The notes under the pieces: generated by a model
Database searches by the model: none
What the model saw: only the letters and a program-made list of their open reading frames with translations
What the model was told of the DNA's origin: nothing
Part shown: positions 7,988 to 26,605 of the stretch, piece by piece
How the letters are laid out: every line of letters starts with the position of its first letter
Numbering within the stretch: the first letter of the stretch is position 1
Position numbers and translations under genes: made by a program
Source: a virus
Strand: one strand, 5' to 3'
IMG/VR virus record: IMGVR_UViG_3300009164_003853
Location: 1 to 28,731 of that record
Length of the DNA stretch: 28,731 bases

Positions 7988-8029
7988 TTGGTGTCCTGGA
8001 TATTTTTATATTGTTAATAATTGCGTTTT

Positions 8030-9106: not shown

Positions 9107-9107
9107 A

Positions 9108-12077: not shown

Positions 12078-12820
12078 AGTGATTCCAATTTTTTATGTGA
12101 TAACTTTCGCCAGTCGTTAAGACTCTTAGATTTATATCCCCAATACTCTTTTTTAACTCGCTCTTGAATATATTTTTTATCAGGACTTGTTAGTTGAAAG
12201 TCTACGCTTTTTCTAAGCAAGGGATTGTCTGCGCTAAAACCTCTATTTGTGTTTATGAATAATAGACTAAAATCTTCTTCTTTGGCTATTTCTATCGCAC
12301 GATCTATTTCGTGCTCGTTGTAGCCAAAAATAATGTATTGCCAGACTATGGTATGTCCTGCATCCCTGCCTTGCTTCATTCGTTTCCAAACATCGTCAAA
12401 GTTTGAACCTATCCTGTACAATTCACTCTTGTTGTCAATTCCGTCTACACCAAAGTACCATGCGTTTTCTCCCACGCCATAGCTGTAGGCTTCATCCCAC
12501 CAAGCATCACTTTTGCCACTTCCAACGGTTGCAATTCTAATTGCCTTGCCTTGCCCGCTACACATTTTTAAAATGTTTAAGAAATTAGGATGATAGATAG
12601 GATCAGATATCTGTCCGCAGAAAGTGATACCATATTCGTAATAATCAAGTATTTTTTTAAAATTATGTTCTTCTAGATCAAAGGATCTACGAATCTGTTC
12701 TTGACTTGTTGTTTTTTGACGTATGCATTGAGGACATTTGAATACGCATCGATATGATGCATCAACATTGGGTCGAACAAACCGTTGATACTTTACATAT
12801 TCATCAGTTATTCTTGCCAT
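12074..12820 (-). CDS. Radical SAM protein, 248 aa
   Basis: The CxxxCxxC cluster motif is C25-C29-C32 (CVFKCPQC). It is followed by a TFCGQISDPIYHP segment in place of the usual GGEP, as in some radical SAM/SPASM proteins, and by WYFGVDGID and a C-terminal helix-rich part without clear auxiliary Cys. I start at the ATG at 12820, preceded by GGAGCAGG, rather than at an upstream in-frame start that would extend deep into the preceding gene; the overlap is then 17 bases. The upstream gene encodes a free SPASM-like domain, so the two may together make one split radical SAM/SPASM enzyme. The stop overlaps the aminotransferase start. The substrate is unknown. Confidence 0.85.
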   Translation of the reverse strand: MARITDEYVKYQRFVRPNVDASYRCVFKCPQCIRQKTTSQEQIRRSFDLEEHNFKKILDYYEYGITFCGQISDPIYHPNFLNILKMCSGQGKAIRIATVGSGKSDAWWDEAYSYGVGENAWYFGVDGIDNKSELYRIGSNFDDVWKRMKQGRDAGHTIVWQYIIFGYNEHEIDRAIEIAKEEDFSLLFINTNRGFSADNPLLRKSVDFQLTSPDKKYIQERVKKEYWGYKSKSLNDWRKLSHKKLESL

Positions 12821-13154
12821 TGGCCTGCTCCTTGATTTCAGCTCTTTCCTCGGCCCTAACTGCATCTTTATCTATATCAACACCGCATTTCTTTTTACAC
12901 ATGTACGAAGCATTTTCAGGCCTAGTTAACAGTGTTTGAAAAAAGTTTTCCCATTGATCTGATGTAAAAATATCTTCTAATCTTTCGTTATTAGATAACA
13001 ACAGTTCTTCATCCTTTAGACCGCACATTTTAATATACCGATAAACCGGAGGATCATCTAACCAGCAACAGGGCAACATAAATCCGTCTGATGTATAAGC
13101 TGCTCCTTTGTTATCATTTGAAGTGTAGTTTAAACACTTTGGGTTTATTTTCAT
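12804..13154 (-). CDS. Free-standing SPASM/twitch-like iron-sulfur domain protein, 116 aa
   Basis: The sequence resembles the C-terminal auxiliary-cluster domain of radical SAM/SPASM proteins with no radical SAM core. It has an N-terminal CLNY, then TSDGFMLPCCWLDDP (the 'g.v.PCC..d' motif), CGLKDEE, a 'lediFtSdqWenFfqtl' stretch typical of SPASM regions, and CKKKCG near residue 88. A Lys/Glu-rich helical tail follows (ERAEIKEQ). It begins in an ATGA overlap with the glycosyltransferase-like gene and overlaps the radical SAM gene downstream by 17 bases. A split enzyme in which this subunit binds auxiliary 4Fe-4S clusters for the adjacent radical SAM protein is the simplest reading, but it is inference. 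Confidence 0.7.
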   Translation of the reverse strand: MKINPKCLNYTSNDNKGAAYTSDGFMLPCCWLDDPPVYRYIKMCGLKDEELLLSNNERLEDIFTSDQWENFFQTLLTRPENASYMCKKKCGVDIDKDAVRAEERAEIKEQANGKNN

Positions 13155-14005
13155 TTGAGTTTCTCTATAGCATTTAATATTGGGGCAACATCGAGCTTTT
13201 TAATATCACGTTTATAGTATACGCTGCCACCATCGTGTATCGATTGGTCTCTAAGATAGATCAATCCTTTTCCGTAGTACTTGCACTCTTGTACGATTCT
13301 AGGAGCAGGATCAAACGTTTCTTTGACATAGACATAGGTATCAAAAATACCCAACAAGTTTTCTATTGGTGCAAATACATTATTGTTTTTAATGTTAACA
13401 TATTTTTCACGGTATGTCAATATCCCATTGTCTGGAAATTGATCAATAAATTTTTCTGCTGTTGCATAGTATTTGTCATTGGTTCCCTGAAATAGGTATT
13501 TGAATTGAATGTTATCAGTATGAGGTTTGTATATGTCAAAATAGATGGTTTTTTCAAAATGTTCGCCAACACCGTTGGAATAAACTTCTGTGTCACATAA
13601 ATCAATGATTTTCTCCGGAGAGTAAAACTCCACTGCTTTGGGATAGCCTTCGGGATGATTTTCGGAATACACAGAAATTATTTTGCCTGCAAATAATTTT
13701 CGCAGTGTAGATTGTTGCGTTTCTTGATATCGGGCAAACTCTTGCCAGCTTGAGGTCATCATGCTTCTGCCCATGATCAGCGTTATGTCGTCTTTTGCCG
13801 GAGTGAAATCATCAAACACTACATTTTGGTTGTGAATGTACTTGTTGTCAATGGCGCTGATGTAATTTTCTTTTGAGAATCTTCTATGACCAACAATAAC
13901 CAATCGGGCTGCTATGCCTAGAGAATTTAGATACGAACAATGTTCGTAGCTATAATACAATAGACCGTCAACGGGCTTGCTGGTGCATACAATATTTAAA
14001 GTCAT
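13151..14005 (-). CDS. Glycosyltransferase-like protein, 284 aa
   Basis: The protein has the alternating strand-helix pattern of a GT-B-like fold: MTLNIVCTSKPVDGLLYYSYEH at the start, ARLVIVGH, DDITLIMGRSMM and KIISVYSENHPEGYPKAVEFY in the first half. The second half has KYLFQGTNDKYYATAEKFID, FDTYVYVKETFDPAPRIVQECKYYGKGLIYL and a final helix. The 'FDPAPR.vQEc.yyGk' region occupies the place of the donor-binding Glu-rich motif of family GT4-type enzymes, but the match is loose. No membrane segment is present. It is the first gene of the minus-strand biosynthetic run, 91 bases from the divergent plus-strand operon, with GATAAATA about 20 bases upstream. An alternative is a phage-specific protein with no transferase activity. 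Confidence 0.55.
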   Translation of the reverse strand: MTLNIVCTSKPVDGLLYYSYEHCSYLNSLGIAARLVIVGHRRFSKENYISAIDNKYIHNQNVVFDDFTPAKDDITLIMGRSMMTSSWQEFARYQETQQSTLRKLFAGKIISVYSENHPEGYPKAVEFYSPEKIIDLCDTEVYSNGVGEHFEKTIYFDIYKPHTDNIQFKYLFQGTNDKYYATAEKFIDQFPDNGILTYREKYVNIKNNNVFAPIENLLGIFDTYVYVKETFDPAPRIVQECKYYGKGLIYLRDQSIHDGGSVYYKRDIKKLDVAPILNAIEKLK

Positions 14006-14096: not shown

Positions 14097-14843
14097 ATGA
14101 AACATTTTGATCAAATCAATCCTCAACAGATATTATCTAATGGTATAACAATACATAGTTCTGGGACCAGCGGTGAGCCCAACGCATATTTTCAGTCTCC
14201 TGATAAAATAAAAATTGCCAACGAACTTGCACGAGATCGTCAACAGATAGTTAAATCAAGCAAAGTCTATACTTGTTGTAAAATCACTCATGCTGGTGGC
14301 CTGCTTGCTCAAACATTGCCTGCTTTAGAAATTGGAGCAGAAGTTGACATTGAAGATTTTAATGCATACGCCTTTGTTAAAAAAATAAAAAATTACACTC
14401 ATTCTCATATAACTCCTTTACATGCCCGAGCAATAATGATGACCAAGGGATTTCATAGCTTGGATTTAACAGGAGTATGGATAACCTGTGGTGCTGATCC
14501 AGTTACCTGGGATATAATAGAATCATTTGTGACCAAAGGCGCAAAGGTTTTAGCCAATTGGGGAATGAGTGAAATTGGTCCAATTGCTATTAACACGTTA
14601 TTTGACAGCATAGAGAAAGTTCATTACTATAAGTCTCTGTGTCCTAGTAATGCAACAATACTAGGAGATGTGGCGGCATGTGATTTTAAAATAGTAGATA
14701 GCGAGTTGTGGGTTCGGGGCGGCATATCAATCTACAATGATTGGTACGCTACTAAAGATATGGTAGTCAGCAACCAAGGAATACTGTTTTATCAGGGTAG
14801 AACAAACAAGGAGGTGGATTTGTGGAATCCAGTCAAGGGCTAA
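14097..14843 (+). CDS. Half-length acyl-adenylate-forming (ANL) enzyme, 248 aa
   Basis: ANL enzymes activate a carboxylate as an acyl-AMP and often pass it to a thiol or amine. The core motifs are in order: SSGTSGEP at 21-28 (ATP-binding P-loop, A3), NWGMSEIGP from 154 (A5, normally YG.TE), YATKDMV with D221 (A7, ribose contact) and GRTNKEVD from 234 (A8 hinge). The protein lacks the N-terminal A1/A2 region and the mobile C-terminal domain with the A10 lysine, so it is about half the usual 500 residues. Loss of A10 normally weakens adenylation. It may be a minimal adenylase, work with a partner, or be degenerate. It overlaps the next gene by 22 bases, consistent with acyl transfer by its product. 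Confidence 0.82.
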   Translation: MKHFDQINPQQILSNGITIHSSGTSGEPNAYFQSPDKIKIANELARDRQQIVKSSKVYTCCKITHAGGLLAQTLPALEIGAEVDIEDFNAYAFVKKIKNYTHSHITPLHARAIMMTKGFHSLDLTGVWITCGADPVTWDIIESFVTKGAKVLANWGMSEIGPIAINTLFDSIEKVHYYKSLCPSNATILGDVAACDFKIVDSELWVRGGISIYNDWYATKDMVVSNQGILFYQGRTNKEVDLWNPVKG

Positions 14844-15415
14844 CAACTGTTGAATTTACATCTGATCAAATATCAGCTGTAGAAGAATTCTGTAGAGCAT
14901 GTGAACTTGTTGGATATAAAAATAACATCAGCGTTAAATCCATGCGGTTAGATTGGTGCTTGAATTTAGGAGGACAGTTCTTCTTAACCTACAGCAATGA
15001 CAAAATAATTTCATTGAGTGGATGTCACCCCTTGCCCGAAGCAGGTGAACATGTTTACAGAATACTGTTTAGAGGCGCAACATTGCCCGAATATCAGAAC
15101 TTACACGGAACACTAAGCAAAACTCATATGAATTCTATTCCGTTCTACTATCATGTACCGAAACAGATATTGTGGGCATTATCTGCAGGTTATACCGACT
15201 ATGCAATTACAACAAACCACAACAACAAAGACGGAATTCAGTCAATGAATAAAAGTCATCGAGTATTTAAACTGCTTGAGAAACAGCATATGGTAACTTG
15301 TCTGCATGAAAATCTATGGTTATTCAATAACGCTCAAAGTGTTTGGAGCGTAAACGTAGATAACTATAACATTGCTAGAAATAATTTTAAAGAAAGAAAT
15401 GGACACGATATTTAA
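14822..15415 (+). CDS. Acyltransferase-like protein (GNAT-type suspected), 197 aa
   Basis: The start is GTG at 14822, behind a near-perfect AAGGAGGT ribosome site inside the end of the adenylation gene. The protein shows a strand-rich centre (GGQFFLTYSNDKIISLSGCHPLP), a YRILFRGATLPEYQ strand-loop and KTHMNSIPFYYHVPKQILWAL. Then come GYTDYAITTN and a C-terminal helix-strand pattern (SHRVFKLLEKQHMV). This layout fits a GNAT-like fold, but the acetyl-CoA loop (Q/RxxGxG/A) is not obvious, so the assignment is tentative. Tight coupling to the acyl-adenylate-forming enzyme suggests it uses or modifies the activated acyl group. It overlaps the next gene by 17 bases. Confidence 0.5.
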   Translation: MESSQGLTTVEFTSDQISAVEEFCRACELVGYKNNISVKSMRLDWCLNLGGQFFLTYSNDKIISLSGCHPLPEAGEHVYRILFRGATLPEYQNLHGTLSKTHMNSIPFYYHVPKQILWALSAGYTDYAITTNHNNKDGIQSMNKSHRVFKLLEKQHMVTCLHENLWLFNNAQSVWSVNVDNYNIARNNFKERNGHDI

Positions 15416-16163
15416 TAATAACAATTATCTTTTTATATTGGCCAACCAAGGTGCCGGCGGACATCGGTTGGGGAGAATAATCAGTTGTTTTAATAGTGTC
15501 TATTGGTACAGTTCTAAACACAACGGAATTGACCCTTGGGATGTTTTTTTAGACAACACCATTGCTGGAAAAGACATCAGCAAATATCATTATGACCGAA
15601 TCATGGATAATAAAACAGTACCTATTCTAGGGGAAAGAATATTAAAATGGTGGAACTCGGAAGACTGGGATAAATTTTATAACACAAATTGGTTGACAGA
15701 ATTTAAAAAAATCACCTTGCCTGCCAACATGATTATCCATTGGGTATTGCATGATACTCCGGCTGAGCTGCATAGAAAATTTCCACAGGCCAAAATTATA
15801 TCATTGATAGACACTGATATAGATTCAGTCACTAACCGATACATGCAAACTACAGCAAGATTTCCCTGTGCTATAAATCATTTTAATTTAAAACCATCTT
15901 ATAAAAATCAGTACGCACAGTATGTAGATGAATTAATCAATCCAACAGAACAACAGCTTTGGTTTCAAATTAATAAAAATTCTACTGAAACGGATTACAT
16001 CAACTACATAAAAGAAAACCTAACACTGTTGAACAATGTTAGGCAGTCTTATGTAAACAAAAATTATCTAACTGTTACGTGGGGAACATTAGATATTGGC
16101 GTTCTTAAAAGTTTTTTAAACGCCAGCGAAATTGATCAATCTTATAAAAAACTGTTAGATTGA
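15399..16163 (+). CDS. Divergent P-loop protein, sulfotransferase-like suspected, 254 aa
   Basis: I start at the ATG at 15399, preceded by AAAGAAAGAA, rather than at an in-frame ATG 27 bases earlier. Near the N-terminus, FILANQGAGGHRLGRIISCF resembles a Gly-rich nucleotide-binding loop followed by a helix. At mid-length, FPQAKIISLIDTDIDSVTNRYMQTTARF resembles the 'ki.L.RdP.d...S.y' phosphosulfate-binding strand-helix of sulfotransferases. Both are diverged, and the classical PAPS motifs are not intact. It ends the plus-strand trio. Its stop runs 9 bases into the convergent minus-strand P-loop gene, with no terminator between them. The nature of the transferred group is unknown. Confidence 0.5.
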   Translation: MDTIFNNNNYLFILANQGAGGHRLGRIISCFNSVYWYSSKHNGIDPWDVFLDNTIAGKDISKYHYDRIMDNKTVPILGERILKWWNSEDWDKFYNTNWLTEFKKITLPANMIIHWVLHDTPAELHRKFPQAKIISLIDTDIDSVTNRYMQTTARFPCAINHFNLKPSYKNQYAQYVDELINPTEQQLWFQINKNSTETDYINYIKENLTLLNNVRQSYVNKNYLTVTWGTLDIGVLKSFLNASEIDQSYKKLLD

Positions 16164-16685
16164 TTCTAGTACAGCTATTCCAATAGTTCCTGTACTTTCT
16201 AAATTTAAGGTATAGTCAGCATTGAAAACTGATGCATTAACTCGTTGATAATTTAATGTCAAAGAATTGGCAGCAATGAAAGAATCAATAGTTGTTTTTT
16301 GTCTAGCAATAATAGCTGACATCTCTTGCGAGGTTGCAAATTTTTCAAACACAATTCTTCTTTCTGGGTCATCTAAATTGCTATCTGTAAAAATAAAAGT
16401 AGCAGAGGGATATGCCAAATAAATTTCGTTTATATGGTCTGGAACCCTCCAACCCATGAATATAGTTGCAACTGAAATAGATGTAGTAGACTCTTGCAGC
16501 ATGAGACTAATTTTATCTAGTGTTTCGGCTGCCGCCTTTGTTCCCGAATCATTAATTCTTTCTGGAATTCCTATGGTTCTTAAACTGACGACTTGATTGT
16601 TTTCTCTGTAGGTATTCAACAGGTTAGTGGCTGCAATTGTTGTGCCTGTTCCCGGTGTTCCTACAATAAAATAAATTTTTGACAT
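16155..16685 (-). CDS. Small P-loop protein of unknown function, 176 aa
   Basis: The ATG at 16685 is chosen over one 15 bases upstream because a GGGGA ribosome site sits at proper spacing. The N-terminus MSKIYFIVGTPGTGTTIAATNLL has a Walker-A-like GTPGTGTT loop. A region of strands and helices follows (VATIFMGWRVPDHI, YPSATFIFTDSNLDDPERR). This could be a nucleotide kinase or sulfotransferase fold in which the TDSNLDDPERR part matches the 'l.RdP' region. No lid or nucleotide-specificity motif is visible. It is short for a sulfotransferase. It lies downstream of two longer 'TGxPGSxWS' paralogues on the same strand. Confidence 0.55.
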   Translation of the reverse strand: MSKIYFIVGTPGTGTTIAATNLLNTYRENNQVVSLRTIGIPERINDSGTKAAAETLDKISLMLQESTTSISVATIFMGWRVPDHINEIYLAYPSATFIFTDSNLDDPERRIVFEKFATSQEMSAIIARQKTTIDSFIAANSLTLNYQRVNASVFNADYTLNLESTGTIGIAVLESI

Positions 16686-16714
16686 ACTATCCCCTAACAT
16701 ATAGAGTATTTAGC

Positions 16715-17404
16715 TTAAACAATTTCAAAAAATGCAACTTTGATTGTGTCTTTGATTATTGGGTCAGCCTTTGGTTCTATAACTCTTGTATCTGGAAATC
16801 TAGAATGAAGCCATTGTCCAGCGGAATCAAAGTCCCACCATTCAATACTGTGCTTTTTAGCAAATTCTAAAACCAGATCGCTTTCTTCTTTTATCTGCTT
16901 TGACATTTTCTCAGGACCTTCATACCATGTATATATGGGATAATGTATATCCCATCCCCCCATACTATACCACCAATCTTCTGCGGCTTTTGGTTCACGC
17001 CATATCAGCAGCATCTTATGGCCTTTACAGTTTTTCCATATCCAATCTAGATTGTATGCAAACCAATGGCTTCTAATCAGCTTGTTTGGTCGTTCTTCAT
17101 CTGTGAAAGGTTTAAAACATTCTTTTAAAAAAGATTCTGTTGTGTAGTTTTTAGAAATATTGTCAAACCCGTGGCCGAAATCATGATATGGACCAAAATA
17201 AGATCCAACATGAGTTGTTTGTTGCCATGAGGTATCGGTTATATTATAATGTCGGCCTGCATGTTCCTCAGGCATTTTATAAATTTTTTCGGTGGTTTCA
17301 TCAGTTTTATCAAAATAAGGCATTATTCTTTTTAATCGATTACTGATCATGCTCCAGCATGACCCAGGCGCTCCTGTGGTAAAGACCAATGTATGTTTTT
17401 GCAT
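16715..17404 (-). CDS. P-loop sulfotransferase-like protein, 229 aa (paralogue 1)
   Basis: The P-loop TTGAPGSCWS (residues 9-18) follows a hydrophobic strand, matching the phosphosulfate-binding loop position of sulfotransferases. Other shared features with the paralogues at 17406 and 23045 are THVGSYFGPYHDFG...FD, RSHWFAYNLDWIWKNCKG, the strand MLLIWREPKAAEDWW (the 'iyi.RdP' strand) and GGWDIHYPIYTWYEG. All three families of motifs are conserved in order, which argues for an active enzyme family. Whether PAPS is the donor is not certain, since a kinase role is also possible. It directly follows paralogue 2 with a 1-base gap, a tandem duplication. Confidence 0.6.
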   Translation of the reverse strand: MQKHTLVFTTGAPGSCWSMISNRLKRIMPYFDKTDETTEKIYKMPEEHAGRHYNITDTSWQQTTHVGSYFGPYHDFGHGFDNISKNYTTESFLKECFKPFTDEERPNKLIRSHWFAYNLDWIWKNCKGHKMLLIWREPKAAEDWWYSMGGWDIHYPIYTWYEGPEKMSKQIKEESDLVLEFAKKHSIEWWDFDSAGQWLHSRFPDTRVIEPKADPIIKDTIKVAFFEIV

Positions 17405-17405
17405 A

Positions 17406-18071
17406 TTAGGTTATTTCCGTATAAATGACTGATATTTTGTTTACATTGTATTCGACGGCTGGCGGCCTGTTAGTTTGAGTGATTTCTTCTCTGCCAAATT
17501 TTTCTAGCCACCATTCTTCACAATATGTTTCCCATTTGAGATTTTTTTCTTTGGCAAATCTTAATAAGCTGTTGTTCTCTTCTATGATCTGCTGGGTTAT
17601 TTTTTCATTATTTTCATACCAGGTGTATACGGGATATTTAATATTCCACCCGCCTATTTTCTCCCACCAATCAATTGCACCTTGACTTTCTTTGTGAATT
17701 AGGAATAGGGTATTTCCTTTACAATTTTCCCATAACCAATCTAAATTATAAGAAAACCAATGGCTTCGAATACATTTAGTCTGACTGCCGTCATGGTTAA
17801 ACGGAAGTCGACATTCGTTGTAAAAACTTTCTAAGGTATAATTATTTGGAATATCGTCGAAGCGTTCACCAAATTCATTATAAGGTCCAAAATAACTTCC
17901 AAGGTGTGTTCTATTGGTATCCTGTGTGGGATCTCGGTGTGGTGCTAGATGATGGCGGGATCCGTTGATATCTGATAGATCGTGATTTAAAATAAGTTTA
18001 AGACGATGAGAAAGCATACTCCAGGAACTTCCGGGCACGCCAGTAACAAAACAAAAATTAGGATTGATCAT
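17406..18071 (-). CDS. P-loop sulfotransferase-like protein, 221 aa (paralogue 2)
   Basis: It has the same architecture as its tandem neighbour: VTGVPGSSWS at 9-18, THLGSYFGPYNEFGERFDDI, RSHWFSYNLDWLWENCKG, the strand TLFLIHKESQGAIDWW, and GGWNIKYPVYTWYEN followed by a helix. The 'RdP' arginine of the canonical family corresponds to a Lys here (HKESQ), one difference from paralogue 1 (WREPK). The C-terminus diverges, so substrate specificities may differ. It begins in an ATGA overlap with the 2-oxoglutarate oxygenase-like gene upstream, so the two are likely made together and may act on the same target. Confidence 0.6.
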   Translation of the reverse strand: MINPNFCFVTGVPGSSWSMLSHRLKLILNHDLSDINGSRHHLAPHRDPTQDTNRTHLGSYFGPYNEFGERFDDIPNNYTLESFYNECRLPFNHDGSQTKCIRSHWFSYNLDWLWENCKGNTLFLIHKESQGAIDWWEKIGGWNIKYPVYTWYENNEKITQQIIEENNSLLRFAKEKNLKWETYCEEWWLEKFGREEITQTNRPPAVEYNVNKISVIYTEIT

Positions 18072-18994
18072 CTTGGAATAATAGGAGGTTGGTCATGTAC
18101 TTTATCAAACATGTTAGTTTCTTCATTCCATCGATATCTGGTATCAGGGGTTCCTTCTTCGTAAAATTTGTACGATGATTCAGTCATATATCCTGTTAGG
18201 TGCAAACTAAATCGTGGCTTCATGCACATATTAGCAGTACCGTGTGGCATGTGCATCCAGTCCCAAGAAATACATTCTCCCTTGACCCAATGAGTATATG
18301 AAGTATTACCAAAGTTCCAAACATGCCCAGGAACCCAATCTTCTAAGAATATAGCGAATCGTCTGAATCGATGCGTCTCGTATTGCAAGGCCGTGTCGTT
18401 CTTCATGATATTCATATATGTATCATAGTGATTGTTAGCACATTGCATGGGGCGCTGTATATGAATCAATGAATAACCGTCTTCTCTTAGAGCGCCTTGA
18501 TGTGCCTTCTCTTCATCTAGACCAATATAATCTCTAATCTTTGTACACCACGACCCCATTGGAGCTGAATCAAATATCTCATGAGAACTTGCATCAAGTC
18601 CGTGTCTTTCAAACTCTTTTACTGTAGATGCTTGGTAATGAGGACTTCCGGGCTTGTCATATCCCTGAGTACCGGTTCTGGTAATCCAGGTAGTAGGATG
18701 AGACCGTTCCAGTGCTATCGCAATATCATCAGAAAAATCAATGCCCTCAAATACTCCTAACCGATCAATCACACTGTCAATAGGATCGGGACCCCAACGC
18801 ATTTGATCATAATTGGCATAACTTTCACAGTGATCCCATCTACTTACAATGCCTTTGGTCATCCTAGGATGACTATCTGCTTTTACTAATTTTTGTTCAC
18901 GTAACTCGCGCCACTTGGCAAATTTTTCATCTAGTTCTCGTTGCTCTTGTAGGTACTGATCCCACGGTTTTTTAATAATTATTTTTTTACTCAC
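18068..18994 (-). CDS. Fe(II)/2-oxoglutarate-dependent oxygenase-like protein, 308 aa
   Basis: The first 60 residues are charged and helical. The catalytic part carries a likely facial triad: H189 and D191 in NNHYDTY, and H251 in MPHGTANM, with R261 (KPRFSLHLTG) placed to bind 2-oxoglutarate. The strand FAIFLEDWVPGHVWNFGNTSYTHW resembles aspartyl/asparaginyl beta-hydroxylase-type cupins. The start is GTG at 18994, with GGAGG upstream inside the methyltransferase gene, and overlaps it by 8 bases. It is related to the 235-aa protein at 19673-20380 and is longer at both ends. Hydroxylation of a peptide side chain or small molecule is likely; the target is unknown. Confidence 0.7.
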   Translation of the reverse strand: MSKKIIIKKPWDQYLQEQRELDEKFAKWRELREQKLVKADSHPRMTKGIVSRWDHCESYANYDQMRWGPDPIDSVIDRLGVFEGIDFSDDIAIALERSHPTTWITRTGTQGYDKPGSPHYQASTVKEFERHGLDASSHEIFDSAPMGSWCTKIRDYIGLDEEKAHQGALREDGYSLIHIQRPMQCANNHYDTYMNIMKNDTALQYETHRFRRFAIFLEDWVPGHVWNFGNTSYTHWVKGECISWDWMHMPHGTANMCMKPRFSLHLTGYMTESSYKFYEEGTPDTRYRWNEETNMFDKVHDQPPIIPR

Positions 18995-19676
18995 TTTGTT
19001 TCCTCCAAGTCCAACTTTGTCTTTTAAGTTGTTGCATTAAACTATCTTTAATTTTTTTTGATTCTAACCAATGATTATCTTTAACACCGGTATCAACCTG
19101 ATTTCTTTTCATTCTTTCATATTTCTTTTCTAATAGTTCTAGAGGTGCTGTGGCATTATAAGTCCACGGTTCAACAACATATTCTAAATTATATTTTTCT
19201 GTAATTTCGTTTCTAAGTTGATCGTTCCAGGGATATCGAACAGCGTCTTTGTCGTAGATTGCATGGTATTCTTTAGAAAATTCATCATTGAGCATTACAC
19301 GCATCTCAATCAAACCACCAGGTTTAACCCAGCCAATGACTTTATTGATATTGGCAAGAATATATTCTCTACTGATATATTGTATACTTCCTAGACATAG
19401 CACAGCATCGGCACTGTCTGGTTCAAATTGTGCATCGAGAATTGCACAGTTTATATCAACATTTGGAAATGGACTTGCATCAAAACCTATCAAATTTTGA
19501 ATGAATGGTTTATGTTGGTTCTTTCCGCAGCCAGCATCAATTACCAGAGTCGGGTTCAACGCATTTACTCTAGCATACATTTCTTCAAGGCCTGCATTCT
19601 CTTGAAATTGATTCCCCATCCAATCTGACGGTTTATACCGTTCAGGAAGAGTAGTTTGATAGTACAAGTCACTCAT
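18987..19676 (-). CDS. Class I SAM-dependent methyltransferase, 229 aa
   Basis: Motif I is VIDAGCGKN (45-53). An acidic strand end, LIGFDASPF, serves as motif II. Then come a DAVLCLGSIQYI strand (motif IV, usually NPPY or similar, here LGSIQYI) and the VKPGGLIEMRV post-motif. The spacing is normal for a small class I enzyme. It sits between two oxygenase-like genes, overlapping both (ATGA upstream, 8 bases downstream), so a hydroxyl made by them could be its methyl acceptor. A homologue with the same 'DxGCGxNpfk..I.nLiGiD' opening is encoded on the other strand at 21854. Confidence 0.85.
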   Translation of the reverse strand: MSDLYYQTTLPERYKPSDWMGNQFQENAGLEEMYARVNALNPTLVIDAGCGKNQHKPFIQNLIGFDASPFPNVDINCAILDAQFEPDSADAVLCLGSIQYISREYILANINKVIGWVKPGGLIEMRVMLNDEFSKEYHAIYDKDAVRYPWNDQLRNEITEKYNLEYVVEPWTYNATAPLELLEKKYERMKRNQVDTGVKDNHWLESKKIKDSLMQQLKRQSWTWRKQSE

Positions 19677-20380
19677 TTATCTAGTAGCCCATATTCCATC
19701 CAGGCCTGATATTCTATCACTGGAATTTCGTAGGTGTTCTGTGCTTCTTTTAAAAATTTAAGAGTTTTATCTGTGACAACACCTGTGGTTAATAAACTGA
19801 CTCTGGGAGTTAATCCAGCGTTGGCAGAACTATGAGGAACATTTTTCCAATCAAAGGTGTGTATATCACCGGCACGCCAATGACTGTAGGTGTAATTACC
19901 GTACTGTGCAAAATGTCCTTGATCCCAATCAGTAAGCTGTATCATAATACGCATGACCTTTAATGGATCTTCTGGGTTGACTTTTTGTAATTTATCTATG
20001 TGTTTGGTAAAAACCTGACCAGGCCATTGTACATGTATTCTATCAAACCTATTTGTCAGCCCTATTTTATCACACATTTCTCTGAATACAGGTTCTAGTT
20101 TGTATTCAAAATTGGCAATGGTCATGTTGGGGTCAGCACCGGCTGTACTGAGATCATATTCTTCTTTGTCAATGTGTTTATTAGGTTTGCCATCTTCGGA
20201 TCTAGTTCTCCAAGTCACTGGCTGTGCAGATTTAATTACTTCTGCAAGTTCGTATTCCCAGTTGCCAAGAAATCTTCCTATTCCTTGTACACAATCCCAC
20301 CTTGCATCAGTTTTCCAATTGTCAAAATGATATGCTGATTTAGCTTTAAGCATTTCCCAATTACTTTCAGATGTTTCCAT
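19673..20380 (-). CDS. Fe(II)/2-oxoglutarate-dependent oxygenase, Asp/Asn hydroxylase-like, 235 aa
   Basis: The double-stranded beta-helix signatures are clear. HxD is H127-I-D129 (FTKHIDKL), the distal His is H183 in VPHSSANAG, and R193 follows ten residues later (PRVSLLTTG). The strand MRIMIQLTDWDQGHFAQYGNYTYSHW between them contains the Gly/Trp turn also found in the 308-aa relative. AGAGGATAAA upstream serves as ribosome site. It heads an overlapping oxygenase-methyltransferase-oxygenase-transferase-transferase run (20380 to 16715). Known relatives hydroxylate Asp or Asn beta carbons in proteins or free amino acids. Which applies here cannot be told. Confidence 0.78.
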   Translation of the reverse strand: METSESNWEMLKAKSAYHFDNWKTDARWDCVQGIGRFLGNWEYELAEVIKSAQPVTWRTRSEDGKPNKHIDKEEYDLSTAGADPNMTIANFEYKLEPVFREMCDKIGLTNRFDRIHVQWPGQVFTKHIDKLQKVNPEDPLKVMRIMIQLTDWDQGHFAQYGNYTYSHWRAGDIHTFDWKNVPHSSANAGLTPRVSLLTTGVVTDKTLKFLKEAQNTYEIPVIEYQAWMEYGLLDK

Positions 20381-20403
20381 GTTCTTTTATCCTCTTGGGA
20401 TAT

Positions 20404-20757
20404 TTAAGTAAAAAGATGGCCGAAGATAAAATAATCTATTATAAATGTGGTCTCGGCACCTATGAATACTGCCAGCCAATAGTTTCCTATTTTATTCCAA
20501 ATAAATCTTATATACCACCAAGCTGCTATAACTCGCAGAGTGTAGAGTACATCGGACTTTAGATATTCAACGACATCAGGTAACTCTAAAGCATTGAAGT
20601 AATGTCCAAAGACAAAAGTATCGTAGGCAAAACTCAGCTGTGCCATAATAAACACAGCCAAGTAGTAGGGCAGATATTTGCTGAGTATTTTTACTATGGG
20701 CCCGCTGACTATGAGTCGGTAGGCCACATAGATTATATTTGTAAGAATTAATTCCAA
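20404..20757 (-). CDS. Small membrane protein with internal duplication, 117 aa
   Basis: Most of the chain is hydrophobic, with about four potential membrane segments. It is built of two similar halves: KYLPYYLAVFIMAQLSFAYD then FVFGHYF, and KIGNYWLAVFIGAETTFIID then FIFGHLF. The core 'YxLAVFIxAexxFxxDxFxFGHxF' is thus duplicated. The start codon is TTG at 20757, immediately after the TAA of the solute-binding gene. No good Shine-Dalgarno is present, so expression may depend on that gene's translation. It resembles no family I can name. Its position after a Bug/TctC-type gene hints at the small TctB-type subunit (four membrane segments), but no TctB motif is seen. Confidence 0.65.
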   Translation of the reverse strand: MELILTNIIYVAYRLIVSGPIVKILSKYLPYYLAVFIMAQLSFAYDTFVFGHYFNALELPDVVEYLKSDVLYTLRVIAAWWYIRFIWNKIGNYWLAVFIGAETTFIIDYFIFGHLFT

Positions 20758-21747
20758 TTAATTTTCTGGTTTAATTCTCTGTGCGATCGGTTGCCAAACT
20801 CGGCGCAGGCCAATCATACCATTCTTTAGGCCTTGTTCTGTTTGCCATTCTGGTGTAGCAAACATGAAGTTTTCTTTAAACTTTTCTTGTACTTCGGGAT
20901 GCTTGCTGGCTGCATTAAATTGTTCTCTATACCATTTGGCAATTTCTGGATCAGTGCCGGGCGGCAGAACAATGTTCCAACAACCGTGTATGCTTAGACC
21001 CGGTACAAGATCTTTCATTAATGGTGCTTTCTCTAAACCAGCTAGAGGAAAATCGTTGGCAATACCAATTAGTTTTAATTTTCCACTTTGAACATGAGGA
21101 TAGCCTACAGTAACTGGGGTAACACCAAATTCAGCATGTCCGCCCATGACATCTAGCAGAGCTTGAGCTGGACCTTTGTACATAGGAGTTTCTACCATGT
21201 CGCCGCCTGCGACTTTGAGATTGGTAGTTAGGTATTCAACTGCTAGTTTGTGACCAGCGCCGCCAATGGCAATGTTGATCTGTCGGTCTTTTTTCTTGAT
21301 AGCATCTATGAGTTCTTTGGGAGTATTGATCTTGCTACTAGGATGTGCCCAAAATGCCAATGGGCTTCTTGCAATATGTGTTACATGCACCGCCTGCATC
21401 ATGTCGTATTTGGCCACCTGCGGATACCAAACTTCCGGGGTGACCCATGCACTTTGACAAGCAGGTACTGCTAGAGTCTGTCCATCATTGGCTGTTTTGT
21501 TAAACAAATGATTCATAGCAATGTTTCCATCTGCGCCAGGCATGTGCTGTGGTTGGAATTTTACTCCAGGATTGTTTTGCTCCACAACACTGGCCAACAA
21601 TCTAAAACTAATTTCGTTGCCTGCACCAGGGCCGTTAGGTAGTATAAAATTAACTGTGCCTCTGGGTTGCCATGCTTGTGCGGCAGTAGTAACTAGGGCT
21701 ATGGCCAATACCATTAGGCCTTTCGTGAACTCGCTTTTAGTCAGCAT
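20758..21747 (-). CDS. Bug/TctC-family periplasmic solute-binding protein, 329 aa
   Basis: A clear Sec signal peptide (residues 1-25, MLTKSEFTKGLMVLAIALVT then TAAQA before W26) indicates export. The mature part has the family layout: FILPNGPGAGNEISFRLLA near the start, PGADGNIAMNHLF, VTHIARSPLAFWAHP, LIDAIKKKDRQINIAIGGAG, MYKGPAQALLDVMGGHAEFG, GYPHVQSGKLKLIGIAND and DLVPGLSIHGCWNIVLPPGTDPEIAKWY. Bug/TctC proteins bind carboxylates for tripartite tricarboxylate transporters and are greatly expanded in proteobacteria. No TctA permease is in the window. Base composition looks richer in G+C than its neighbours, consistent with acquisition from a host. AAGGAG lies 8 bases before the ATG. A phage gene of this type may alter host uptake. 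Confidence 0.9.
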   Translation of the reverse strand: MLTKSEFTKGLMVLAIALVTTAAQAWQPRGTVNFILPNGPGAGNEISFRLLASVVEQNNPGVKFQPQHMPGADGNIAMNHLFNKTANDGQTLAVPACQSAWVTPEVWYPQVAKYDMMQAVHVTHIARSPLAFWAHPSSKINTPKELIDAIKKKDRQINIAIGGAGHKLAVEYLTTNLKVAGGDMVETPMYKGPAQALLDVMGGHAEFGVTPVTVGYPHVQSGKLKLIGIANDFPLAGLEKAPLMKDLVPGLSIHGCWNIVLPPGTDPEIAKWYREQFNAASKHPEVQEKFKENFMFATPEWQTEQGLKNGMIGLRRVWQPIAQRIKPEN

Positions 21748-21853
21748 TATTTGTCTCCTTGATAACTATATATGCTTGTAGAATAAAAAAATTTAAAGAA
21801 TTGAATATTTTTTACTATCTTACAGAATTATTTACCTAAAGAGGAAATTTTTA

Positions 21854-22591
21854 ATGAATACCAGAATTTTTAATATGATTGCAGAAAAATTAGAGTCAGC
21901 CTTTAATTTGCCCAAATATCAATCTGTTAGAGATTCCCTGTCTAAAGACATTGTGGTCACTGACTTACCATGGACTCCTGCCCGTTTTCTCAAATTTGAA
22001 GATAGTGTAAAAACTGAACTGCAATTTACCAGTATTGATTTTACCGGCAATCTAGAGGCAGTGGTAGATAGATTAGACAAACGATATCTCAACAGATTCT
22101 TTGGGGAAATTTGGAAACCAACTACAGAGATCTATCAATACAGTGGTTGGGGACTTGTTGAGGAAATCAACAAGGCAGATCCTAAAGCTGTCCTAGACTT
22201 TGGCTGCGGGTATAATCCATTCAAGGGTCGCATTAAGAATCTAGTGGGTATCGATCCCTACAACAACTGTGCTGATTACATGGTTGACATTCTGGAGTTT
22301 AAGGTTGAGTCCGAGAGCTTTGATCACATCATAGTCTTTGGCAGTTTGAACTTCAACAGCCGAGACGAAATTGATGTGCGTTTTGAACGACTAGTCAGCA
22401 TATTAATGCCTGGTGGTAAAATGTATTTTAGAGCCAATCCAGGTATATTATGGCCTGCCGGCCCGTATGTGGATATATTTCCTTGGACATTTGAAGTGGC
22501 CTACGAACTAGGGCATAGACATAATTTAGAACTGCAAACTTTCAAGAAAGACAACAACGATCGCTTGTATTTTGAGTATAAGAAAAATTAA
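21854..22591 (+). CDS. Class I SAM-dependent methyltransferase, 245 aa
   Basis: The 110-residue N-terminal extension contains IWKPTTEIYQYSGWGLVEEI. The SAM-binding domain follows: motif I AVLDFGCGYNPFKGRI (112-127), GIDPYNNCADYMVDILEF (motif II and III), HIIVFGSLNFNSRDE (motif IV region) and LMPGGKMYFRANPG. It matches the 229-aa methyltransferase at 18987 in the motif I-II wording, so the two are paralogues with different N-termini. It is alone on the plus strand. AGAGGAAA lies 9 bases before the ATG. Its stop overlaps the convergent oxygenase-like gene by four bases, with no terminator between. The substrate is unknown. Confidence 0.85.
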   Translation: MNTRIFNMIAEKLESAFNLPKYQSVRDSLSKDIVVTDLPWTPARFLKFEDSVKTELQFTSIDFTGNLEAVVDRLDKRYLNRFFGEIWKPTTEIYQYSGWGLVEEINKADPKAVLDFGCGYNPFKGRIKNLVGIDPYNNCADYMVDILEFKVESESFDHIIVFGSLNFNSRDEIDVRFERLVSILMPGGKMYFRANPGILWPAGPYVDIFPWTFEVAYELGHRHNLELQTFKKDNNDRLYFEYKKN

Positions 22592-23064
22592 TAAATTAAA
22601 TTGTTAATTTCTTGAAGCACTGTTTTGTAATCTGCCTTGAATGGTATTTTTAACAAATATCTAAAATCCGAAACATTGTTCTCAACGCTGTGAGATGTTT
22701 GTAAATTTGCTAGAATGGGGGCAATGTAAGGAACCACAATCTTGTTGCCGTTTTGCCAAAATTCAATATTACTGTTGTCTGATATACCAAACAGTATGGC
22801 CGATTTGAATTCCCAGTCAGTATGCGGATGTAACCTACTAAATGGATCGTATCTTAAGAATTCCACAAGCCCGTGTTCTATTTTTAATTGATCTAATATT
22901 AAATTTAAATTAATGTTGGTATCTTTGAGATAAACATGTTTGTAGTTTTTAACAATCTTTCCTCTAGGATTAACCCAGTAATGCCACAGCTCTTCGGGAA
23001 TTAAAGATATTTGATTTTTTAAATTTTCTAAATCTATTTTTAGATTATTTAGATATTGATACAT
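22588..23064 (-). CDS. Small 2-oxoglutarate oxygenase-like protein, 158 aa
   Basis: A compact double-stranded beta-helix pattern is visible. FLRYDPFSRLHPHTDW provides HxD as H81-T-D83. AILFGISDNSNIEFW and a VVPYIAPILANLQTSHSVEN strand follow, with the distal His H125 and R135 (FRYLLKIPF) ten residues later, the usual place for the 2-oxoglutarate-binding Arg. The N-terminal 60 residues are helical. It is shorter than typical members but retains all triad positions. Its start overlaps the sulfotransferase-like gene upstream by 20 bases. It ends the 24255-to-22588 minus-strand trio, an oxygenase / P-loop transferase / oxygenase set that mirrors the 20.4-16.7 kb set. Confidence 0.65.
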   Translation of the reverse strand: MYQYLNNLKIDLENLKNQISLIPEELWHYWVNPRGKIVKNYKHVYLKDTNINLNLILDQLKIEHGLVEFLRYDPFSRLHPHTDWEFKSAILFGISDNSNIEFWQNGNKIVVPYIAPILANLQTSHSVENNVSDFRYLLKIPFKADYKTVLQEINNLIY

Positions 23065-23758
23065 TGTCTAGTTTTCTAACATTCCATATGGCAATACTTA
23101 CATCATCAGTTCCTTCGGTGTGCTGAATATGTCGGTCTACCCAATCTCGTTGAACAGAATCGGCAATTTCATCTACAGTCCAGTTGAATGTGTCTTTTAA
23201 GAAATCGCGAGTAAATTTTTGAGGAACGATGTTTTTCTTCTTGCAAAAATCCAACATCAATGTATTATGTTCTGCAATCATTGACTTCATGGTATCGTCA
23301 TCTTTGTAATAAGGGCGATAGTTAGGATATGATATATTCCAGCCGCCGGCTCCAAACCAACCCTGTTCGCATTTATGGTTGGGTCTGAATACCATAATGA
23401 TAGGATTGTCTGGAAATGTCTCTGAGATAAAATCTAAATGGTGACTTAAAAAATGGCTTTTTACCAACAGATTTCCGTAGGATGCGTCTGCCCATTCTTT
23501 GGTAATTTCTCGAACTATTGAATTTGAATCTAGTACGGACAATCGATCCCAGTGTTCTCCAACTCCGTGTCCTGGTCCAAAATAAACTCCAGTGTGAGTA
23601 ATACTTCTTGCTAGGGGTGTAGGGCCGGTGTGTGTGTATTCTCGCTCAGGTGTCCTGTCGGAAATATTAAAATTCAATTGCTGGATTGCTTGTAAAATAT
23701 TAGCGGTACCTGACCACTTGCTGCCGGGAGCACCGGTAAACCAAATTAGATTATTCAT
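23045..23758 (-). CDS. P-loop sulfotransferase-like protein, 237 aa (paralogue 3)
   Basis: It is homologous to the tandem pair at 16715-18071. It has FTGAPGSKWSG at 7-17 (P-loop), THTGVYFGPGHGVGEHWDRL, VKSHFLSHHLDFI, the strand IIMVFRPNHKCEQGWFGAGG and GGWNISYPNYRPYYKDD. The R of 'VFRPN' sits where canonical sulfotransferases have the RdP arginine. It starts in an ATGA overlap with the Asp/Asn hydroxylase-like gene and overlaps the small oxygenase-like gene by 20 bases. All three are probably made together. Sulfo transfer is a working assignment; phosphoryl transfer is the alternative. Confidence 0.6.
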   Translation of the reverse strand: MNNLIWFTGAPGSKWSGTANILQAIQQLNFNISDRTPEREYTHTGPTPLARSITHTGVYFGPGHGVGEHWDRLSVLDSNSIVREITKEWADASYGNLLVKSHFLSHHLDFISETFPDNPIIMVFRPNHKCEQGWFGAGGWNISYPNYRPYYKDDDTMKSMIAEHNTLMLDFCKKKNIVPQKFTRDFLKDTFNWTVDEIADSVQRDWVDRHIQHTEGTDDVSIAIWNVRKLDNVSISK

Positions 23759-24255
23759 TCTGAAACTTCTATAACGATGTGAAAGCGATCTCTATTGGAG
23801 CAGTTCATGGCAGTATGAAACTTGGTAGTGTCAGTCCACCAATAGACACCTTGATAAAGATGCATTGATTCATTATTGATTACCATAAAATTATCACTTT
23901 GAGTAATCAACGGAACATGTATTCTTGGAGTGAAATCTCTGTGCCAATCGTAGCATACTCTTGAGCGCACACGCATCACTCTTATTCTGCCTATGATCCT
24001 AGGAGATAGCTCATCTAAAAATGATCTCAACCACGCACTGTTGTACGAGTCATCTCTCCAGTGATTCCATTCTTGCAGTTTTACTTCACCTCGAGTCCTA
24101 CCTTCGCCAAAATCTAAATTTCCATTAGAGTCTATACGGCCACTGAGACCAAACTGATCTACACCAGTTTCGTTCATGTGTTGAATTATAGGCTGGAACT
24201 GTAGCAATGCCTGTTGGAGATTTATTTTACCCAGTATTTTAAAATAATCACTCAT
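23755..24255 (-). CDS. Aspartyl/asparaginyl beta-hydroxylase-like oxygenase, 166 aa
   Basis: This is the closest of the four oxygenases to the Asp/Asn beta-hydroxylase family. YDWHRDFTPRIHVPLIT contains H105-R-D107, and the RIHVPL strand is family-typical. KFHTAMNCSNRDRFHIVIEV supplies distal H147 and R157 for 2-oxoglutarate. The N-terminus is a helix-turn region without a signal peptide or membrane anchor, so it is a cytoplasmic enzyme. No obvious Shine-Dalgarno precedes the ATG at 24255. The gene is the first after the terminator at 24290-24314, but no promoter is evident. Such small soluble forms occur in bacteria and phages. Substrates are usually peptide side chains or free amino acids. 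Confidence 0.8.
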   Translation of the reverse strand: MSDYFKILGKINLQQALLQFQPIIQHMNETGVDQFGLSGRIDSNGNLDFGEGRTRGEVKLQEWNHWRDDSYNSAWLRSFLDELSPRIIGRIRVMRVRSRVCYDWHRDFTPRIHVPLITQSDNFMVINNESMHLYQGVYWWTDTTKFHTAMNCSNRDRFHIVIEVSE

Positions 24256-24337: not shown

Positions 24338-26605
24338 TTATGAAACAGCATAACCAGGAACTACATAAGTGACTCCAGCAAGTTTGATTTGAAAGTAAAT
24401 GCTTGGAGTTGCTGGCAGTGGGCTAGCTATACCAGCTGCACCAACTGTAGTCTGTGTAGCAGTAACAAGGTCTATAAGTCCAGTACCGTTGGGGTTAATT
24501 TCAAGGTCTGCATTGGTAGCTGTAGTAGAGATTATGTTGTCTGCTATTCTAATCATTCCTGTATTAAATCCATCACCAGCCGTTACTGCTCCTGCTGTTA
24601 AAGCAAGATCACCTGTTGCCATTGTAATGTTTCTGTTTGAGGAAATAACCATCGCTGTGGCAAAAGTGCCGTCGCTGTCAGCTGTTAAAAATCTAATAAG
24701 ACCTGAGGCTCGTCCAGCGACCGTACCGCTAGCAGCCTCAACTCGAATTTGTGCAACTGAGTCTGTGCTGGTACCATTAAAAGCGGTAAATTCAATCCTT
24801 CCGATATGATCATTTGATTGTACTCGTAGAGGAGAAGCTGCGGTGCCTCTTGATCTGAACCACCTCCAGTTAACTGTTGAATTCGCAACGTTGGTATAAT
24901 TATCACTTCTAATTGGAATGTTGGATTCAGAAGTGCTGACTGTTCTTATTACACCTTCGGTTAATGAAATTGATGTAGATGTAACATTGCCTGTTAAGTC
25001 TCCCGTTACATTGCCAGTTAGATCTCCAAAGAATTGTCCTTCTACGGCGTCAACTAATTTTGATGAATCATCAGCAAACACAGAACCTCTCAATTCTCCT
25101 ACCACTGACCCGATTAGATTGCCAGTTACGTTACCTGTTACATTGCCAGTTAGATTACCAGTTACTGTACCAATTGTGGCATTACCAACAGTTAATCGAT
25201 TAGTTCCAGGATTGAACTTAAGGTTACTGTTAAGATTGAGTAACTTGTCGCCGCTGAGTGCATCAAAGAAAGAAATATAATGATCTGCACTAGTACCAGT
25301 GGTATTAACTGTGATAGTGCTGGCATTAGAACCAGCAGAAGTAGTAATAATACTTCCGCCTACTGTGGCTCCTGCTGGAAGGTTTAGTGTAGAACCGCTG
25401 ACACTGATGGCCACATTGCCAATCCAAAGAGCATTGGTTCCTTCTGCAAGATACAGCTTACTGTATTTCTTAGTAAACGTACCAATTGAAGCTTCTTCAC
25501 TAACGCTGGGAAGTATGTTCCTAGTTGTTAATTCGTTGTCTATTGTGACATCTGAATTAAATGTTATCGACGGAGTTACAACAATACCCGAACTATCGGC
25601 ACTGTCAATTAAATTTGTAAAAATGTTAGCTGTGACATTGGATGCATTAATAGTGGTTGCATTCAGTGTACTTAAACCCAGCGTGTTAGTACTTGGCTGA
25701 TAGGTTAAACTGGTGTCTGTTCGAATAGACTGGTTACCAAAAGCTGCTGAACTAAAATTAATATAATGTATTGATGAAGAACTATTGGTGTCAACTAATG
25801 AAACAGTTGACGCTACAGTGGCAGTAGCGGCCAATGTTGCAGTGTCTGCGTTACCAATTAAAGATCCTCGTAGAACTCCGCTTTGGCCGTCTACTAACAT
25901 TGTGCTGTCGTTGGCAAATACTGAACCTAGTAGATCCCCACTGAATGTACCATTGCTGGTATTGACCATTACTGTAGAATCTTGGGCTATGACATTACCA
26001 GAAATCGTAATATTATAAGTGTCACCTTCGTTTATACCCAGCGGTTGGCCACCGATAGTTGATCCAGTTGGAAAGTTAATAGCTGTTCCAGTGGAAGTAA
26101 GTACTGCATTACCTAGATAAATCGATGAACCGCTTAGATATAAATCTCTAAATCTGTTGGTGCTACTGCCAATATCGTAGGCTATGTTTGTGTCCGGAAG
26201 TATGTTTCCCTGTGCTACAAAGTTACCGTAGACAGTGTGTGTATCTGCTTCAATGATAATTCCAGAGTCTTCTGCCCAAACACTGCCCTTGAAGCCTTGA
26301 TCAGCTGAAATTAGACCTTGATAATTTGACAAATTCTGTGCTACTGTGGCCTGCAATCTACCGCCGATATATTGAAATGCAATACCACTGTGCTGACTGT
26401 TATCTGTAAAGGACAGTCCTAAAAATAATTCTGCTGTGGCATTCTTGGAATCTGCCACACTGAACGATGTTACCGGTACACCACCTGCTGTTGAACCGTT
26501 ACCTACAAAAACCGCGCCGGTCGTTGTATCGTAGACTAATTCGCCTACTAGCGGAATATTGTTCAGCCTATCAGCTGTGGGTCCTCTTCTAATCTGTAAA
26601 GGCAT
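24338..26605 (-). CDS. Tail-fibre/virion structural protein with repeated modules, 755 aa
   Basis: The N-terminal MPLQIRRGPTADRLNNIPLV and GELVYDTTTGAVFVGNG form the module that opens many marine T4-like structural proteins. The rest is Gly/Ser/Thr/Asn-rich beta sequence with internal repeats. A module 'ILPdtniayDIGSstnrFrdLYL...ygnavl...t..LP.GstiGG' occurs near residues 134-190 and again near 364-420. 'GSV[FW]A[DEN]DS...vd...g...G.l.GN' occurs three times. 'LTGNVTGN'-type repeats fill about 480-540. The C-terminus (ATPSIYFQIKLAGVTYVVPGYAVS) may be a tip or trimer end. No chaperone or peptidase domain is seen. AGGAG lies 6 bases before the ATG, behind a CATAAATA late promoter. A host-contact role is likely but inferred. 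Confidence 0.85.
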   Translation of the reverse strand: MPLQIRRGPTADRLNNIPLVGELVYDTTTGAVFVGNGSTAGGVPVTSFSVADSKNATAELFLGLSFTDNSQHSGIAFQYIGGRLQATVAQNLSNYQGLISADQGFKGSVWAEDSGIIIEADTHTVYGNFVAQGNILPDTNIAYDIGSSTNRFRDLYLSGSSIYLGNAVLTSTGTAINFPTGSTIGGQPLGINEGDTYNITISGNVIAQDSTVMVNTSNGTFSGDLLGSVFANDSTMLVDGQSGVLRGSLIGNADTATLAATATVASTVSLVDTNSSSSIHYINFSSAAFGNQSIRTDTSLTYQPSTNTLGLSTLNATTINASNVTANIFTNLIDSADSSGIVVTPSITFNSDVTIDNELTTRNILPSVSEEASIGTFTKKYSKLYLAEGTNALWIGNVAISVSGSTLNLPAGATVGGSIITTSAGSNASTITVNTTGTSADHYISFFDALSGDKLLNLNSNLKFNPGTNRLTVGNATIGTVTGNLTGNVTGNVTGNLIGSVVGELRGSVFADDSSKLVDAVEGQFFGDLTGNVTGDLTGNVTSTSISLTEGVIRTVSTSESNIPIRSDNYTNVANSTVNWRWFRSRGTAASPLRVQSNDHIGRIEFTAFNGTSTDSVAQIRVEAASGTVAGRASGLIRFLTADSDGTFATAMVISSNRNITMATGDLALTAGAVTAGDGFNTGMIRIADNIISTTATNADLEINPNGTGLIDLVTATQTTVGAAGIASPLPATPSIYFQIKLAGVTYVVPGYAVS

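Follow-up and report, generated by a model that had tools for sequence, protein, structure and literature searches.

A phage cassette joining a carboxylate transporter to predicted oxygenases, sulfotransferase-fold proteins and methyltransferases is conserved across aquatic viruses

Introduction

2-Oxoglutarate (2OG)-Fe(II) oxygenases are common in aquatic phages. Phages may also encode binding proteins for nutrients, as with PstS of cyanophages, a periplasmic protein provided by a lytic phage to increase uptake by its host. Here, we analyze the IMG/VR virus record IMGVR_UViG_3300009164_003853, a fragment of 28,731 bases (the window, meaning the whole stretch of DNA analyzed), in which four oxygenases and three P-loop proteins of predicted sulfotransferase fold accompany methyltransferases and the binding protein TctC of a tripartite tricarboxylate transporter (TTT). 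Unlike the PstS case, this cassette involves a carboxylate TTT system rather than an ABC phosphate system, and the binding protein is joined to tailoring enzymes.

The closest viral precedent is the finding of tctA and a 2OG-Fe(II) oxygenase on SUP05 viral contigs, where the role of tctA in infection was called unknown (Roux et al. 2014, PMC4164917), a statement repeated in a 2019 review (PMC6359870). Those contigs share both genes with the phages considered here; however, in the parts of the report that deal with them, tctA is described through a protein-domain match only, and neither a conserved cassette nor any partner gene for a sulfotransferase or methyltransferase is named (Roux et al. 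2014, PMC4164917). The joint cassette was not described in the open-access literature searched, subscription papers being outside that search. Among cellular systems, the bacterial TTT transporters (TctABC and Bug-type binding proteins) belong to the same Pfam families as the phage TctC and TctA, whereas the cassette version is phage-encoded, is often reduced to TctC alone, includes a second binding-protein family (TctC2) and is coupled to sulfotransferase-fold (ST), oxygenase (OX) and methyltransferase (MT) genes. Our results place viral tctA and the 2OG oxygenase as parts of one conserved cassette with the predicted sulfotransferase and methyltransferase, a small expressible gene set that makes the role of viral tctA directly testable.

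Results and discussion

Organization of the cassette in the window

The enzyme genes form two sets on the minus strand, ox1-ST1-ox2 (24255-22588) and ox3-MT-ox4-ST2-ST3 (20380-16715). The first set comprises ox1 (23755..24255), ST1 (23045..23758) and ox2 (22588..23064), and the second comprises ox3 (19673..20380), a methyltransferase dependent on S-adenosylmethionine (SAM) (18987..19676), ox4 (18068..18994), ST2 (17406..18071) and ST3 (16715..17404). The interleaving of four HxD...H...R oxygenases with three paralogous TGxPGSxWS proteins, first noticed in a preliminary description made from the sequence alone, was borne out by open reading frames (ORFs) at or beside the positions initially proposed. 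The ATGA-type linkage noticed at the same time holds for three of the six junctions (23755-23758, 19673-19676 and 18068-18071); the others consist of one 20-nt overlap, one 8-nt GTGAGTAA overlap and one 1-nt gap. Both sets belong to a single unit, which also includes three intervening genes that had been missed: a divergent methyltransferase (21854-22591, plus strand), TctC (20758-21747, minus strand) and a small membrane protein (20404-20757, minus strand).

Conservation and co-inheritance in other viruses

In scans of viral contigs the P-loop family had 302 relatives and the oxygenase family at least 571; loci were gathered around four seeds (oxygenase, TctC, TctA and ST) whose sets partly overlap. 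Among 80 loci picked by the oxygenase alone, 67 contained the P-loop family, 63 a methyltransferase and 48 TctC; with near-duplicates removed, ST was present in 46/53, MT in 43/53 and TctC, counting both of its families, in 46/53. The linkage of oxygenase and P-loop genes exceeds chance, and the pairing is kept in other phages, contrary to the outcome that was to have refuted the original proposal, usually with the P-loop gene preceding the oxygenase (an overlap of exactly 4 nt in 27/35 ST-OX pairs). Similarly, TctC overlaps a following ST by 4 nt in 15/22 pairs.

Searches from the transporter side gave the same associations. Non-redundant loci seeded with viral TctC contained ST (47/49), MT (46/49) and OX (41/49), with at least two of the three in 47/49, while 39/49 non-redundant viral TctA loci had at least two of them; among ST-seeded non-redundant loci, 24/40 combined ST, MT and a Tct component. 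When all flanking ORFs were clustered without labels, ST, MT and OX emerged as the three largest groups, followed by the two TctC families and TctA. The common freshwater order is MT (divergent)-TctC-ST-OX, with TctA-TctC2-ST-MT as an alternative, and an enlarged form is seen in the window and in loci L004, L010 and L068. In the window, this enlargement amounts to four oxygenases, three sulfotransferase-fold proteins and a pair of methyltransferases, to which an acyl-adenylating enzyme is added.

The phage genes flanking the cassette vary among relatives (PhoH, DNA polymerase, nuclease, lysozyme), and these variable surroundings point to a cassette that moves as one unit. Pairwise FastTree distances from 18 cassettes, uncorrected for shared phage descent, are correlated between ST and OX (r 0.87, p 0.002, n 18), between MT and OX (r 0.77) and between MT and ST (r 0.76). 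These observations bear on the proposal that the locus is a hotspot gathering hitchhiking auxiliary genes with no common pathway. Such a hotspot would suit the abundance of unrelated metabolic genes in the window (carbamoyltransferase, radical SAM, DegT, nitroreductase) and the variable composition of the cassette, but the gene order is fixed with 4-nt overlaps although flanks differ, the enrichment of partners declines beyond 3 kb from the seed, and the ST, OX and MT trees agree, so that we consider it very improbable.

One contig (IMGVR_UViG_3300032288_004815, loci L132 and L135) has two copies of the cassette that face opposite ways and score equally, which is probably an assembly palindrome.

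The P-loop proteins as diverged sulfotransferases

The three P-loop proteins carry the motifs TGAPGSKWS (ST1), TGVPGSSWS (ST2) and TGAPGSCWS (ST3). They are paralogous, ST3 being 44% and 32% identical to the other two, and ST1 and ST2 match each other in BLASTP at 8e-24. The AlphaFold2 (AF2) model of ST1 (m94c33dd6d174; predicted local distance difference test, pLDDT, 93.6) gave weak Foldseek matches with sulfotransferases on top (E 0.015 and worse) and a shikimate kinase in the list. Structural re-alignment placed tyrosylprotein sulfotransferases (TPST) first, with TPST1 at Z 10.3 (173 residues aligned, root-mean-square deviation 3.4), followed by other sulfotransferases using 3'-phosphoadenosine 5'-phosphosulfate (PAPS) at Z 8.1-8.6 and nucleotide kinases at no more than 7.9.

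Sequence profiles led in the same direction. Pfam Sulfotransfer_3 was matched by 13 of the 30 members of the family alignment, mostly weakly (best E 3.5e-5; ST1 itself reached 14.7 bits against a cutoff of 27), and no other Pfam family recurred in more than two of the 30. Against genuine Sulfotransfer_3 proteins, the family profile aligned over 132 columns that include the P-loop, Lys100 and Arg125 (E 9.6e-5, probability 58), whereas a control alignment with an APS-kinase-like family (APS, adenosine 5'-phosphosulfate) covered 26 columns around the P-loop only. The second-motif Arg125 is retained in 75% of 84 family members. Compared with the sulfotransferase superfamily (Sulfotransfer_3, TPST1/2), the phage proteins share the predicted fold and, in the profile alignment, the position of the 5'-phosphosulfate-binding (5'-PSB) P-loop and of the Lys and Arg in the segment after it; they differ in having the loop PGSxWS instead of PRSGTT, in a length of only about 210-240 residues, and in invariants of their own (His102, Asp34 and GGxxIxYPxY).

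An alternative assignment would make the P-loop proteins NTPases or nucleotide kinases, with phosphoryl transfer as the activity of the unit. The P-loop itself, the nucleoside monophosphate kinases at up to Z 7.9, the shikimate kinase in the Foldseek list and a missing second-motif Ser are compatible with it. We nevertheless rate it as improbable: the matches to TPST exceed those to kinases by about 2 Z units, sulfotransferase families alone recur among the Pfam matches, the loop lacks the GK[ST] used by kinases, and the profile alignment with the kinase family ends after the P-loop. Taken together, the fold ranking, the Sulfotransfer_3 matches and the profile alignment make diverged PAPS-type sulfotransferases, rather than kinases, the best account of the P-loop proteins; the missing second-motif Ser and the loss of Arg from ST2 are genuine departures. 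A transferase fold, whose absence was to have refuted the original proposal, was thus recovered, with sulfo favored over phospho transfer.

A further conserved P-loop family (cluster c8, e.g. L141:8666-9298) has the motif GPQGSGNH, often lies directly after OX, and is present in 14/31 TctA loci that lack ST. It was considered as a second sulfotransferase and rejected, its profile match spanning the P-loop only.

The oxygenases

In each of the four oxygenases, an HxD motif is followed at the usual spacing by a distal His, with an Arg ten residues beyond it: H105-R-D, H147 and R157 in ox1; H81-T-D, H125 and R135 in ox2; H127-I-D, H183 and R193 in ox3; and H189-Y-D, H251 and R261 in ox4. The motifs were checked in all four and the fold was modeled for ox3. 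Pfam Asp_Arg_Hydrox is matched above its cutoff by ox1 (27.3 versus 22.6 bits, 3.7e-6), assigning it to the AspH type; ox2, a probable 2OG-Fe(II) oxygenase, gives only a hint of this family (E 0.14), and its relatives were not found among the fetched loci. The paralogues ox3 and ox4 form one family (BLASTP 8e-23), that of the conserved ST-OX pair, to which no Pfam family is assigned. No sequence homology was detectable between the oxygenases of the two sets, ox1 and ox2 being other branches, and therefore what is repeated in the window is the P-loop family together with some oxygenase, not a whole set as first thought.

The AF2 model of ox3 (m6b6f8431115d, pLDDT 90.5) matches proline 3-hydroxylase (Z 12.3) and other 2OG oxygenases, and an EF-Tu-bound prolyl hydroxylase from a bacterium (4iw3, Z 10.7) is also among the matches. 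With the prolyl and proline hydroxylases and AspH, the cassette oxygenases share the double-stranded beta-helix fold, as seen in the ox3 model, and the spacing of HxD...H...R, although ox3 and ox4 carry no Pfam assignment. Motifs and model together argue for prolyl-hydroxylase/AspH-like 2OG-Fe(II) enzymes with a predicted hydroxylating activity. No TET/JBP-type match that would suggest a role in DNA modification was found.

The EF-Tu complex among the fold matches, along with the TPST-like fold of the P-loop proteins, would accord with enzymes that modify the transporter or host cytoplasmic proteins, tuning the host TTT system or a translation factor. We think this unlikely, as the cassette has no neighboring gene for a conserved protein target, and TctC is exported whereas no signal peptide is apparent in the modifying enzymes.

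Transporter components and methyltransferases

The TctC of the window has an apparent signal peptide and matches Pfam TctC at 1.6e-21, and its family profile aligns with solved TTT binding proteins at 8e-31; overall, viral TctC and TctA are assigned to PF03401 and PF01970 with strong scores. TctA is absent from the 28.7-kb fragment; it is found in 9/26 relatives, with no match in the other 17, whose records may be incomplete. The small membrane protein that follows TctC occupies the position of TctB, had no Pfam or NCBIfam match and was not matched to TctB itself; the order TctA-TctC-TM-OX (TM, transmembrane protein) is kept in relatives such as L010. TctC2 is a second, diverged binding-protein family without a Pfam match that is distantly related to BugD and TctC. 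It comprises L105:6931-7995 and 72 relatives and is present in 49/49 non-redundant TctA-seeded loci, and at L029:2747-6418 a TctA-TctC2 pair is duplicated in tandem upstream of OX-ST-ST-ST.

Both methyltransferases are recognized through sub-threshold Pfam matches, the divergent class I SAM enzyme to Methyltransf_25 and the second, within the ox3 set, to Methyltransf_12. It is the divergent family that accounts for the 43/53 oxygenase-seeded loci given above and that constantly accompanies the cassette in related viruses.

Proposed function

Based on linkage and predicted folds, we infer catalytic activity, use of PAPS and one shared substrate, which we take to be a small molecule. We consider it about evenly balanced whether the genes make up an auxiliary cassette that imports and tailors a small carboxylate, and we prefer this to modification of the virion or host surface. 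In such a pathway, the phage-made TTT binding protein, with a TctA permease in many relatives, would raise carboxylate uptake; the cytoplasmic prolyl-hydroxylase-like oxygenase would hydroxylate the carboxylate or a derivative; the PAPS-type sulfotransferase would sulfate the compound and the SAM methyltransferase would methylate it, the coupled ORFs keeping the enzymes in step. Gene coupling makes sequential action on one target plausible. A more complete version, in which the imported carboxylate is hydroxylated, sulfated from PAPS (with APS-kinase-like support in some phages) and methylated to give a sulfated product that aids infection, constituting a previously unrecognized system, is put forward tentatively and with clear doubt. 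If it were true, the product could, for example, act as a signal or osmolyte, or it could block superinfection or the metabolism of the host.

Several observations weigh against import and tailoring of a carboxylate. None of the cassette components has a known substrate, free-amino-acid and protein hydroxylases are equally near in fold to the oxygenase, and the nearest sulfotransferases act on peptides. ST2 lacks the second-motif Arg, which is replaced by His-Lys, and the 3'-phosphate-binding (3'-PB) Ser that usually follows this Arg is not retained in the family. In many freshwater phages that have TctC, the contig contains no TctA at all, and the MT and TctC tree distances show no significant agreement (r 0.22, p 0.07), which weakens the case that the ligand of TctC is the substrate of the enzymes. 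Part of the tree agreement among the enzymes could itself be a lineage effect, and a tail-fibre-like gene with an Mtd_N domain (24338-26605) adjoins the cassette in the window.

This last gene speaks for the target originally suggested, a virion protein or host surface polymer. According to that interpretation, the enzymes would hydroxylate and then sulfate, for instance, the tail fibre or a surface polymer, altering adsorption or superinfection. Tail-like genes also lie near some relatives (cluster c65), the nearest sulfotransferase folds are peptide tyrosine sulfotransferases, and AspH and protein prolyl hydroxylases are among the nearest oxygenases. Peptide-directed explanations are kept, given the peptide substrates of TPST and prolyl hydroxylases and the adjoining tail-fibre-like gene. 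However, the flanks vary widely while the carboxylate transporter is, with the methyltransferase, a constant neighbor, and no cassette gene was identified as a glycosyltransferase; modification of the virion or surface is so far unsupported and appears rather unlikely.

Distribution in phages and cellular genomes

The cassette is carried by hundreds of uncultivated phages from water, whereas isolated phages appear essentially to lack it. A near-DNA search of isolated phages returned no match, and the cassette was not found in any isolated phage of a 50,697-record collection. Protein searches of isolated phages found ST only in Marine virus AG-345-D19 contigs, a weak cyanophage match for the oxygenase, and TctA/TctC matches limited to bacterial-looking records or unannotated faecal contigs. 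The spread of the cassette suggests that sulfation may be a common viral chemistry in water.

Among 84,980 genomes, a search with one peptide pattern recovered relatives of ST only in Tahibacter aquaticus and in a SAR11 metagenome-assembled genome (MAG) contig; being a single pattern, it may miss diverged homologues in hosts. On the Tahibacter aquaticus chromosome (L160), the ST relative is followed by a methyltransferase.

Additional partner genes and other features of the window

APS-kinase-like genes occur in 11/26 phages, in several of them directly after OX. Their products score above the Pfam APS_kinase cutoff in 5/5 members but fall well short of the equivalog cutoffs of NCBIfam. The genes are fused to or beside a gene for a nucleotidyltransferase like nicotinamide mononucleotide adenylyltransferase (NMNAT), sometimes with a DUF2061 membrane protein. 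These partners could raise the supply of PAPS, a lead drawn from sequence comparison. A full PAPS synthetase is not proposed, given that the nucleotidyltransferase resembles NMNAT and not ATP sulfurylase and that the equivalog scores are so low. At L137:8645-9442 and in its relatives, the APS-kinase-like and NMNAT-like domains are fused, while other phages have two adjacent genes. Peptidase_C26 and a ferritin-like protein also recur near cassettes.

Next to ST in many marine viruses lies a triad that occupies 14097-16163 on the plus strand of the window: a short AMP-binding (acyl-adenylating) enzyme (14097..14843; Pfam AMP-binding 5.3e-8), a conserved partner protein with no Pfam match (14822..15415) and the P-loop-like protein PL1 (15372..16163). 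Each member occurs in 26-29 of 76 ST-seeded loci (PL1 in 28, the conserved partner in 26). In hhalign, PL1 matches the ST family (E 3.2e-5, probability 73) and Sulfotransfer_3 weakly, and it is possibly a distant sulfotransferase. Between PL1 and ST3, on the minus strand, lies a further P-loop protein (16155..16700; VGTPGTGTT) with weak NTPase matches only.

The region 4108-14005 of the window encodes a carbamoyltransferase, two radical SAM proteins, a DegT aminotransferase and one nitroreductase, and represents a possible second biosynthetic island. Two further ORFs, 8030-9106 and 9108-10283, have no Pfam match and look nitroreductase-like by eye.

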